Of a DNA stretch of 64,000 nucleotides, positions 24,005-57,410 are shown one piece after another. The stretch covers positions 1 to 64,000 of the forward strand of contig NZ_WUQY01000007.1 in the NCBI RefSeq assembly GCF_009829085.1. The letters are read 5' to 3'. Under the pieces are notes generated by a model. The model saw nothing but the letters and a program-made list of their open reading frames with translations, was not told the origin of the DNA and did no database searches. Both the position numbers and the translations under genes were made by a program. The stretch's first letter is position 1; each line of letters starts with the position of its first letter. The DNA is from Sphingobacterium bovisgrunnientis. Its GTDB lineage: Bacteria; Bacteroidota; Bacteroidia; Sphingobacteriales; Sphingobacteriaceae.

Positions 24005-24391
24005 ATGAATAAATCTGAATTTGAACTTGTTCTAAGAGAATTTATGCTGATTGTTTATCCCTCAAATGAAGAAGTTTCGTGTATTAATTTTAGAATCACA
24101 TTTGTGATATGAAATATGGGGCAGAGGATTAAGTTTGGAGGGCATTATTTTGCTGGGGATAATTATATTCCAATAAATCTAATTAAGATTGAAAAATTGA
24201 AATGTCGTCAGTTTTGTGAAAGTATAGAATTGTTTCGCAGTCATAATTTGGTATCTGCCAAATGGAATACAATAGATTTAACACTGGACCAAGATAATTT
24301 AATAAGCTATAGTTTTAGGTGGGAGGAAGAAGAAAATCGTGAGAATTTAAAACAAAAAAAGCCCGACAATATTGTCGAGCTTTGTACCTAG
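24005..24391 (+). pseudogene. ORF interrupted by an in-frame TGA, ~127 codons if restored
   Basis: ATG 24005 starts 4 bp after the preceding frame ends. The frame meets TGA at 24110-24112 and continues open from ATG 24116 to 24391, running into the tRNA terminator. The composite (MNKSEFELVLREF at the start, SAKWNTIDLTLDQDNLISYSFRWEEEEN in the second half) looks like one alpha/beta protein. Its Trp- and acid-rich strand pattern resembles small immunity proteins of polymorphic toxin systems, but I cannot place it in a named family. Alternatively, the 91-aa second part alone could be translated. Confidence 0.5.
24354..24380 (-). terminator. Terminator of tRNA cassette 1
   Basis: Palindromic stem (CGACAAT/ATTGTCG extended by GC pairs) at 24361-24380, followed on the minus strand by seven T. 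It overlaps the end of the broken ORF. Confidence 0.9.
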
Positions 24392-24469
24392 GGCGGGAAT
24401 CGAACCCGCACTCCTTTAACAGGAACAGGATTTTAAGTCCTGCGTGTCTACCAGTTCCACCACCTAGGC
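24385..24469 (-). tRNA. tRNA-Leu (TAA anticodon)
   Basis: An 85-nt cloverleaf with a long variable arm. The acceptor GCCTAGG pairs with CCTAGGT (G-T at the end), the anticodon loop CTTAAAA reads UAA, and the T-arm is GCGGGTTCGATTCCCGC. CCA is not encoded. It is cotranscribed with tRNA-Gly, which lies upstream on the minus strand. Confidence 0.96.
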
Positions 24470-24474
24470 AACTC

Positions 24475-24550
24475 TGGAGCGAAAAACGAGATTCGAACTC
24501 GCGACCCCAACCTTGGCAAGGTTGTGCTCTACCAGCTGAGCTATTTTCGC
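24475..24550 (-). tRNA. tRNA-Gly (GCC anticodon)
   Basis: Cloverleaf with the anticodon loop CTTGCCAAG, acceptor GCGAAAA pairing with TTTTCGC, discriminator T, and an encoded CCA at 24475-24477. First gene of the cassette transcript, with a ~50-nt leader from the promoter at 24607-24638. Confidence 0.96.
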
Positions 24551-41370: not shown

Positions 41371-42195
41371 TTATACTTTTTCGTTTTTAATGTATTCGCC
41401 CATGATACTAAAATTCACCGTATGCTTCAGTACTTTGCGAATGGCTGCATCGAAGTCTGATTGTTTTTTCCATTCTACATCGACATAGAAATCATATTCA
41501 TTGCGACGACCGACTACTGGCATCGATTGGATTTTGCTCAGATTTACATTTTGTTCTGCGAAACATTGTAATACAGCAGCTAATGAACCAACTGCATTAC
41601 CTGTTTGAAATGATAAAGAAGCTTTATTCGCATTTTTCTGTTCTACTACTTCGTTTGCTAGAATAAGAAAACGCGTTGCATTTTTTTTATGTGTCTCAAT
41701 TCTCTTTTCTAAAATATTAAGACCATAGATTTTAGCTGCATATTCACTTGCGATAGCTGCTGTTGAAGTCAATTTATCTTCTGCAATTTTCTTAGCACAG
41801 CCCGCAGTATCCATTCCTTCTTTAATTGTCCATTCTGGGTGTTCTCCCAAAAACTCATCGCATTGACGGATTGCAATAGGGTGGGACTCCACAGTTTGAA
41901 TGTCACTCAACTTCACGCCTGGCAAAGCCAAAAGATTTTGTTGAATATTCAGATGTACTTCACCGATAATGTGGAATCTGTAATCTCTCAACAGATTGTA
42001 ATTCGGTAGGATACTTCCTGCAATGGAATTTTCGATTGCCATTACCACATAATCTGCTTTACCTTGTTTAAGCATTTCGCAGGTTTGTTTGAAAGAACCA
42101 CACTCAATTGTTTCGATATCTTGACCGAAATATTTGTAAGCAGCTTCTTCGTGGAATGATGCTTTAACACCTTGAATTGCAATTTTTATACTCAT
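41371..42195 (-). CDS. pheA: Prephenate dehydratase, 274 aa
   Basis: Converts prephenate to phenylpyruvate. The catalytic domain (1-180) carries the TRF motif (KKNATRFLIL, 174-176). A C-terminal ACT domain (about 190-270) has NLSKIQSMPVVG, in which the Phe-binding ESRP of classical enzymes reads QSMP (223-226). I place the start at ATG 42195 (MSIKIAIQG), because a longer frame from 42234 would begin inside the attenuator terminator. First structural gene of the operon, with the mutase activity supplied by the next gene. Confidence 0.93.
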   Translation of the reverse strand: MSIKIAIQGVKASFHEEAAYKYFGQDIETIECGSFKQTCEMLKQGKADYVVMAIENSIAGSILPNYNLLRDYRFHIIGEVHLNIQQNLLALPGVKLSDIQTVESHPIAIRQCDEFLGEHPEWTIKEGMDTAGCAKKIAEDKLTSTAAIASEYAAKIYGLNILEKRIETHKKNATRFLILANEVVEQKNANKASLSFQTGNAVGSLAAVLQCFAEQNVNLSKIQSMPVVGRRNEYDFYVDVEWKKQSDFDAAIRKVLKHTVNFSIMGEYIKNEKV

Positions 42196-42212
42196 GTTGT
42201 TTTTATGTTCAC

Positions 42213-42244
42213 AAAAAAAAGTCCCAGTTTTCAAACCGGGACTT
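42213..42244 (-). terminator. Attenuator terminator of the phe/aro operon
   Basis: On the minus strand AAGTCCCGGTT pairs with AACTGGGACTT (11 bp, one G-T pair) around a TGAA loop, followed by an uninterrupted run of T (eight on the minus strand). It lies 17 bp before the pheA start and after the leader ORF. AGCTGGGAC in the leader (42286-42278) can pair with the 5' arm instead, so the two structures exclude each other. Confidence 0.9.
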
Positions 42245-42271
42245 AGTAGTTATGTTTTAACAATTACACAA

Positions 42272-42337
42272 TTAGTTGTCCCAGCTCTTATTGCTAAAAT
42301 AAAAGAAGTTAAAATAATATGTGTTAAAGTTTTTCAT
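42272..42337 (-). CDS. Leader peptide of the phe/aro operon, 21 aa
   Basis: A 21-codon ORF begins at ATG 42337 and ends at TAA 42272. Residues 4-14 are FNTYYFNFFYF: five Phe and three Tyr in eleven codons; Trp is at 19. It is followed by a terminator before pheA, and its codons 18-20 (AGC TGG GAC) overlap the antiterminator strand. This is the layout of a classical amino-acid leader peptide: ribosome stalling on Phe or Tyr codons when charged tRNA is scarce would free the antiterminator strand. Translation is inferred. Confidence 0.88.
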   Translation of the reverse strand: MKNFNTYYFNFFYFSNKSWDN

Positions 42338-42355
42338 GTTCTCGTTTTGATATTC

Positions 42356-42386
42356 CAAAGGTAGACTAATAATTTATAAATGCAAA
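42356..42386 (-). promoter_or_regulatory. Bacteroidota-type promoter of the phe/aro operon
   Basis: On the minus strand TTTG (42386-42383) is followed by exactly 19 nt and TACCTTTG (42363-42356). The inferred start is near 42349, about 12 nt before the leader ORF. It matches the tRNA promoters in spacing. Confidence 0.85.
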
Positions 42387-42387
42387 A

Positions 42388-42737
42388 TATTTTATTAAAA
42401 AATGTTTTTTCATATCATTTATTAGGGTAAAAATTGACGTTTTTTTAAACATAAAAATCACTATATTTTTATTGAAAATAATGTATAAATTCATTCATTT
42501 AATTTAAAAATGTGCCTTAATTGTGATTTTAAATGAGTTTATAGATTTTTTTAATGAATTTTATTTGTCTAATTATTATATAAAAAATAGGCTTATTTTT
42601 TGATTAATTTTTAATCATTTTTTGGTTGAAAAATATCGTAAATTGAATGATAATTTGTCGATTATATAGCTGATTTTTACGATATGTCTAATTCAATTTT
42701 ATTTGATATAATTGTAATCGTAAAAAAAAGTTGTTAT
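42388..42737. other. AT-rich divergent spacer
   Basis: About 350 bp of very AT-rich, low-complexity DNA between the phe/aro promoter and the DMT transporter gene. An 8-bp inverted repeat (ATCGTAAA, near 42634, with TTTACGAT near 42675) lies just before the transporter. I see no gene in it. Confidence 0.5.
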
Positions 42738-43595
42738 ATGATATATGTTTTGATAAGTGTCTGTTGTAGTGTAATCGTTGGTGTACTTATAAAGATAGCT
42801 AGGCAAAGGCAAGTCGATGTACAACAGTTGGTACTATGGAATTATCCTACAACGGTATTACTGACTTATTTCCTGTTTGATCCATCGTTGGCCGGTTTGA
42901 ATTGGACAAAATTACCTTATCAATTCTATATTCCATTAAGCATACTTTTACCCACCTTGTTTATTTTTATCGCACTGGCTGTAAAATACAGTGGTATTGT
43001 GAAGACAGATGTAGCTCAACGCATGTCTTTGTTTGTTCCATTAATTGCATCCTTTGTTCTTTTTAAGGAGGTAATACATCTTAATAAAATTATAGGTATT
43101 GTGATAGGTTTGGTCGCGGTAGGCTGTTCAGTCGGCTGGACAAAGAAATCATACACCAATACATCAACTAACTCCATATATCCAATAATAGTTTTCGTGG
43201 GTATGGGATTTATAGATATATTATTCAAACAAATAGCGCAATACAAGGAAATCCCATATACCACATCGATGTTTGTTGTTTTTATTGGAGCTATGCTGTT
43301 TGCTGCGCTGATCTTAGCATATAAAGTTGGTTGGAAAAAGGATTCGTTGGATAAATCGGCAATTGTTTGGGGATTGATTTTGGGTTTGTTTAACTTTGCA
43401 AATATTTATTATTACATGAAGGCACACCGAGCAATTTCGGAGAATCCATCCATAGTTTTTACAGCTATGAATGTAGGTGTTATCGTTTTGGGAAGTTTAG
43501 TGGGAGTTTTTATGTTTAATGAAAAGTTGAGCTTTACCAACAAAATAGGTTTGGTATTGGCTGTAATTTCTATTTTATTAATTGCATACCTGTGA
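42738..43595 (+). CDS. DMT/EamA-type transporter, 285 aa
   Basis: About ten hydrophobic helices in two related halves, typical of drug/metabolite transporters. The start is probably ATG 42738 (MIYVLISVCC), because the in-frame ATG 42684 would place a polar 18-residue extension before the first helix. Substrate unknown; members of the family export amino acids or metabolites. It overlaps the YigZ gene by 4 bp (GTGA) and is divergent from the phe/aro operon, which makes an aromatic amino-acid link conceivable but unsupported. Confidence 0.88.
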   Translation: MIYVLISVCCSVIVGVLIKIARQRQVDVQQLVLWNYPTTVLLTYFLFDPSLAGLNWTKLPYQFYIPLSILLPTLFIFIALAVKYSGIVKTDVAQRMSLFVPLIASFVLFKEVIHLNKIIGIVIGLVAVGCSVGWTKKSYTNTSTNSIYPIIVFVGMGFIDILFKQIAQYKEIPYTTSMFVVFIGAMLFAALILAYKVGWKKDSLDKSAIVWGLILGLFNFANIYYYMKAHRAISENPSIVFTAMNVGVIVLGSLVGVFMFNEKLSFTNKIGLVLAVISILLIAYL

Positions 43596-57243: not shown

Positions 57244-57328
57244 TACCTAGGGCGGGAATCGAACCCGCACTCCTTTAACAGGAACAGGATTTTAAGTCCT
57301 GCGTGTCTACCAGTTCCACCACCTAGGC
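57244..57328 (-). tRNA. tRNA-Leu (TAA anticodon), second copy
   Basis: Base-for-base equal to the copy at 24385-24469, with the same anticodon loop and long variable arm. Ends without encoded CCA. Confidence 0.96.
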
Positions 57329-57337
57329 AACTCTGGG

Positions 57338-57410
57338 AGCGAAAGACGAGATTCGAACTCGCGACCCCAACCTTGGCAAGGTTGTGCTCTACCAACTGAG
57401 CTACTTTCGC
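57338..57410 (-). tRNA. tRNA-Gly (GCC anticodon), second copy
   Basis: Same anticodon loop as copy 1. The acceptor is GCGAAAG/CTTTCGC, and the D-loop reads AGTTGG instead of AGCTGG. After the discriminator the sequence is CCCA rather than CCA, so an exact CCA is not encoded. Confidence 0.96.

Follow-up and report, generated by a model that had tools for sequence, protein, structure and literature searches.

A predicted trp-type ribosome-mediated attenuator in front of the pheA operon of Sphingobacterium bovisgrunnientis and its relatives

The question raised by this locus was whether the short region in front of a pheA operon, which holds a leader ORF rich in phenylalanine and tyrosine codons and an intrinsic terminator, acts as a switch that reads the supply of charged tRNA. 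Analysis of the window (the whole stretch of 64,000 nucleotides) and of related genomes pointed to a trp-type ribosome-mediated transcription attenuator of the pheA-DAHPS/CM-aroA-aroC operon, a reading based on sequence comparison and folding models that was given a probability of about 0.9.

Operon and leader anatomy

The operon contained four genes, and the gene order pheA, DAHPS-CM, aroA, aroC was retained in relatives.

42195-41371, minus strand: pheA, prephenate dehydratase, 274 aa (best match NF008865 at 205.7 bits, under the curated cut-off of 219)
41316-40204, minus strand: DAHP synthase/chorismate mutase fusion, 370 aa (assigned on domains only, under the equivalog cut-offs)
40204-38954, minus strand: aroA, EPSP synthase (TIGR01356 above cut-off)
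38797-37706, minus strand: aroC, chorismate synthase (above cut-off)

The operon products serve phenylalanine and the shared aromatic precursors, with the entry enzyme of the pathway and two later shared enzymes among them. Elsewhere in the window, two tRNA gene pairs on the minus strand (24385-24550 and 57244-57410) had equal lengths, near-equal spacing and similar scores, and are perhaps a duplication, while positions 1-77 matched a group II intron (RF00029, 50.8 bits).

The leader features were as follows.

42386-42356, minus strand: Bacteroidota-type promoter, read from the sequence as TTTG (42386-42383), a 19-nt spacer and TACCTTTG (42363-42356)
42337-42272, minus strand: leader ORF of 21 codons, from ATG at 42337 to the stop codon at 42274-42272, peptide MKNFNTYYFNFFYFSNKSWDN
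42324-42315, minus strand: 5' arm of the outer 1:2 stem, ACACAUAUUA (window fold; covarying helix 1)
42305-42298, minus strand: 5' arm of the inner 1:2 stem, CUUUUAUU, codons 11-14 (window fold; helix 3, 96.7% of cells paired)
42292-42285, minus strand: 3' arm of the inner 1:2 stem, AAUAAGAG (window fold; family pair counts)
42286-42278, minus strand: antiterminator strand, AGCUGGGAC (DNA AGCTGGGAC), codons 18-20; family consensus AGCCGGGAC
42274-42266, minus strand: 3' arm of the outer 1:2 stem, UAAUUGUGU (window fold; family pair counts)
42244-42234, minus strand: 5' arm of the terminator, AAGUCCCGGUU, common to antiterminator and terminator
42229-42219, minus strand: 3' arm of the terminator, AACUGGGACUU (pairing in 90.8% of cells; both sides vary in 10 of the 11 pairs)
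42220-42213, minus strand: T-run of the intrinsic terminator, T8

The promoter, the 21-codon ORF and the terminator had been placed in a preliminary description, and all of their coordinates held when the minus strand was re-read from 42386 to 42213. From the promoter motif, transcription is predicted to start upstream of the leader ORF. Among 107 relatives, 96 had the pattern TAnnTTTG in the 75 nt preceding the leader start, as against 5% in mononucleotide shuffles, and 92 of the 107 had TTG at the right spacing from it. The ORF, which is predicted from its sequence to be translated, has Phe or Tyr at codons 4, 7, 8, 9, 11, 12, 13 and 14. Dinucleotide shuffles of the leader gave no ATG ORF of 14-30 codons with at least 8 Phe/Tyr (0/5000), a stretch matching the terminator arm over 9 bp in 41/5000, and the ORF and the match together in 0/5000.

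A terminator scan of 42150-42700 returned one terminator, with 0.2 expected by chance. It was the 11-bp hairpin with a T-run reported earlier in front of pheA, formed by AAGTCCCGGTT and AACTGGGACTT (42244-42219), to which a TGAA loop can now be added. Intergenic terminators are common, and this one might be thought to end an upstream transcription unit, the ORF being there by chance; the gene upstream of the leader is divergent (42684-43595, plus strand), which leaves nothing to terminate, and that explanation, which the shuffles also speak against, is refuted by the conservation described below and was given next to no weight.

Pairing of AGCTGGGAC with 42242-42234 over 9 bp, two G-U pairs included, was found as previously claimed, and G42287-U42233 is a possible tenth pair. 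Antiterminator and terminator have the terminator 5' arm in common and are mutually exclusive. When the window RNA was folded with the full terminator present, the terminator was favoured at equilibrium (at least 0.91), and therefore the switch must be kinetic and decided during transcription, as in the trp leader.

Conservation and covariation in the family

The same design was present upstream of pheA in 107 of 107 readable regions from the family Sphingobacteriaceae, where the start of pheA was located by an N-terminal motif and three loci were left out. As the preliminary description had proposed for related genomes, covarying stems and conserved Phe/Tyr codons were found, and neither the ORF nor the hairpins were missing in any readable close relative, so the observation is taken as settled. 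The leader start codon was ATG in 104 of the 107. One relative genome had an identical PheA and a nearly identical leader.

Helix counts were made on an alignment of 91 distinct sequences; they depend on that alignment, and the related sequences in it are not independent. Counted in this way, the 1:2 hairpin was paired in 86.9% of cells, and 9 of its 18 pairs had changed on both sides (94 such cells); the antiterminator was paired in 84.5% of cells, and 9 of its 10 pairs had changed on both sides, though in only 13 such cells. In a control with the partners slid by 1-3 columns, pairing fell to 19-60%. Unaided, RNAalifold recovered the terminator and the inner leader stem.

The family 1:2 hairpin consists of an outer stem of the GCAUAU/AUAUGC type and an inner CUUUUAY/RUAAGAG stem, both with compensatory changes; it was present in the minimum-energy fold of the window RNA itself, and it overlaps the regulatory codons. 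Its strongest pair was C-G in 56 sequences and U-A in 33, the U-A form spanning at least three genera, and on the 5' side the switch is synonymous and falls in a Tyr codon. The preliminary description had considered a separate 1:2 pair unnecessary, a view that could not be upheld given that the hairpin is conserved and appears in the window fold. The corresponding reduced design, in which antiterminator and terminator alone compete, the ribosome is the sole mask and no 1:2 hairpin functions, would fit with the inner 1:2 stem and the antiterminator being able to coexist in the window RNA and with the antiterminator winning, also when no ribosome is present, as long as the terminator is incomplete. 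Against this stand the conserved hairpin, the 9 of 18 pairs changed on both sides and the Tyr codon kept synonymous, and such a design was judged unlikely.

In RNA that ends before the 3' arm of the terminator and carries no ribosome, the antiterminator beat the 1:2 hairpin at equilibrium in 90 of 107 relatives, so that an untranslated leader would keep the operon silent only if the 1:2 hairpin folded first. In the trp-type reading, the folding models suggest that the 1:2 hairpin may be a protector if it folds first; a role as pause signal is just as likely.

Codon geometry and the proposed switch

Both Phe and Tyr occurred in 107 of 107 leaders (median of 8 Phe/Tyr in 21 codons), the two interchanged at the same leader positions among relatives, and Trp codons were also present in 47 of the 107. 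In the family leaders the Phe/Tyr codons preceded the antiterminator strand by 3-12 codons, and the two codons just before it were never Phe or Tyr codons; by distance before the strand, the Phe/Tyr fraction was 0.9-1.0 at 4-6 codons, 0.7-0.8 at 9-11 codons and 0 at 0-2 codons. Over the 100 leaders in which the stall and stop geometry was counted, the position of the strand start relative to the stop codon ranged from -28 to +8 nt, with a median of -8. Two layouts were seen: either the strand is made of the last codons (leaders ending in SRD, as SWDN in the window), or the ORF ends just before the strand (YYYQ, followed by GTAAGAG). In either layout the stop codon lies at the antiterminator strand, and a terminating ribosome would cover that strand.

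A masking model, in which the RNA downstream of the ribosome was folded with a 14-nt downstream edge (the value for the E. coli ribosome), gave the antiterminator in the window for every tested A-site up to and including codon 15 and none from codon 16 onwards; the last Phe/Tyr codon is codon 14. Stalling at the Phe/Tyr codons and masking of the antiterminator by a ribosome that has reached the last codons of the ORF, both put forward in the preliminary description, are strongly supported by the comparison and the masking model.

The proposed course of events is the following. RNA polymerase would transcribe the leader with a ribosome behind it. When Phe-tRNA or Tyr-tRNA is short, the ribosome would stall at codons 4-14, opening the 1:2 hairpin and freeing AGCUGGGAC, which would pair with GUCCCGGUU before the 3' arm of the terminator exists, and transcription would continue. 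When both tRNAs are charged, the ribosome would reach the stop codon and mask the strand, the terminator would form and transcription would end.

The leader sequence suggests sensing of more than Phe, which is plausible because three enzymes of the shared pathway, the entry enzyme and two later ones, are encoded in the operon. A leader that senses Phe alone, its Tyr and Trp codons serving RNA pairing or arising by chance in AT-rich sequence, would agree with the UAC/UAU codons also building the 1:2 stem and with E. coli pheL, which is Phe-rich; with Phe and Tyr in all 107 leaders, swapping at the same positions, and with shared-pathway enzymes in the operon, it was considered improbable, if slightly less so than the reduced design. 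In enterobacteria, the ilv and thr leaders likewise carry in one leader the codons for several amino acids of a shared pathway; they sense branched-chain amino acids or Thr/Ile, whereas the Bacteroidota leader would sense aromatic ones.

A structured 5' leader with a terminator could also belong to an attenuator driven by a protein or ligand (T-box, riboswitch or RNA-binding protein), the ORF then being incidental. No Rfam family reached its gathering score here, and the F/Y-rich ORF, the codon placement and the stop position were kept in every readable relative, which makes this explanation very improbable. RF01859 (Phe_leader) was the best-scoring Rfam family over the element and matched it end to end, with 25.2 bits against a gathering score of 55. 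Relatives scored 25.5-29.3 bits with RF01859, and other leader families scored similarly on them; homology to RF01859 is not established because of the sub-threshold score and these similar scores.

The mechanism is that of classical trp-type attenuation, and the design is already known from trp and phe leaders. The present analysis contributes a detailed anatomy, covariation of all three helices across the family, the geometry of the codons and the mixture of Phe with Tyr codons. Like the E. coli pheA leader (pheL; RF01859), the element combines a Phe-rich peptide with an antiterminator/terminator switch directly before pheA; unlike it, the Bacteroidota leader has mixed Phe/Tyr (often Trp) codons and a Bacteroidota promoter, and the operon includes DAHP synthase/CM, aroA and aroC. 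With the E. coli trp attenuator (RF00513) it has in common the 1:2, 2:3 and 3:4 pairings, a strand 1 that carries the stall codons and a stop codon beside strand 2. It differs from it in the amino acids sensed and in the 40 of 107 leaders that end in SRD, where the antiterminator strand is the last codons and does not follow the stop.

Earlier predictions for Bacteroidetes may be found in Vitreschak et al. 2004 and Lopatovskaya et al. 2010. No experiment on this locus was found in the literature, and NCBIfam held no model for the leader peptide. For Flavobacterium psychrophilum, the part of a 2021 RNA-seq study drawn on here describes a structured 5' element upstream of pheA with no Rfam match, and leader-peptide attenuation was suspected there before amino-acid operons (PMC9723704). 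That element concerns the same gene and phylum but a member of the Flavobacteriaceae, and the same part of the study gives no worked mechanism for it (PMC9723704).

Distribution and related leaders

Of 201 genomes sampled from the order, 200 matched a covariance model of the element at E 2.1e-8 or better, and no pheA was found in the genome that was the sole exception. The noise level was set by 17 genomes of the family for which the search gave no pheA (best 45.4 bits), and matches were counted only above about 50 bits. A core DNA pattern scanned against one genome per species (84,980 species) occurred in at least 119 stretches. The 80 matches listed were all from Bacteroidota, and from Sphingobacteriaceae where named to family (one was named 'bacterium A37T11'); 79 of these 80 lay directly upstream of pheA, and the remaining one ends at the edge of its locus.

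A class-wide covariance tally of 87/395 was rejected as a prevalence, genomes without detectable pheA also matching at E 1e-4 to 1e-3, and prevalence in the class was judged instead by reading pheA upstream regions. The 15 best covariance-model matches in the class outside the family were all upstream of pheA. Among the pheA genes sampled in the class outside the family, 27 of 38 had an F/Y-rich leader, a matching strand at the leader end and a terminator, and 11 of 38 had no such leader; five of the class loci were read by eye where the automatic choice of terminator or ORF failed, and the pheA query matched in only 43 of 148 class genomes, so distant PheA proteins are under-sampled. Two loci of one genus (class family f15) had pheA without a recognisable leader and terminator, and their upstream DNA resembled the 3' part of an aroA gene, which means that the genes are ordered differently there. 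Five loci of another class family (f12) also had pheA without a recognisable leader and terminator.

Other leaders were seen in the same genome. The trpE leader (about 124300-124560 of contig C89) encodes MQTIVTYQYWWWPEAISIGN, with WWW, and shows the same design, with the antiterminator strand CATCGGG at the leader end and the terminator GCCCGATG..CATCGGGC behind it; a WW-containing leader was present at 30 of 30 Sphingobacterium trpE loci. Ahead of the trpE-leader terminator lies a conserved AATCAACCAAAACCA that could base-pair with the Trp codons UGGUGG. The hisG leader (MTKFFTYHMHTHHRHCGDM), conserved in the genus, has hairpins but no U-tract, and therefore does not fit the pheA/trpE mechanism. 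The hisG upstream regions (loci L276 and L320-L348) encode a His-rich leader, HMHTHHRHCGDM, whose ORF contains a conserved AUCGCC/GGCGAU hairpin and is followed by a conserved UUCUACGUGAAGCA; neither an evident intrinsic terminator nor a match in Rfam was seen for the hisG leaders. No leader was seen in the ilvD upstream region.

It is possible, though somewhat less than an even chance, that one leader integrates the charging of several aromatic tRNAs (Phe, Tyr and often Trp), so controlling the Phe branch and the shared aromatic pathway at once, and that this arrangement goes back to the ancestor of much of the class Bacteroidia. If this reading is true, ribosome and RNA polymerase would be closely coupled in a phylum whose sigma factor is unusual and in which Shine-Dalgarno pairing is little used.

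The locus provides a worked, comparatively tested case of classical attenuation in Bacteroidota, and the covariance model separates pheA-bearing family members from noise (E 2.1e-8 or better, as against 45.4 bits at most). If the leader works as modelled, transcription-translation coupling in the phylum becomes testable by a simple reporter, and the model offers a route to annotating aromatic amino-acid leaders in many gut, soil and water bacteria.
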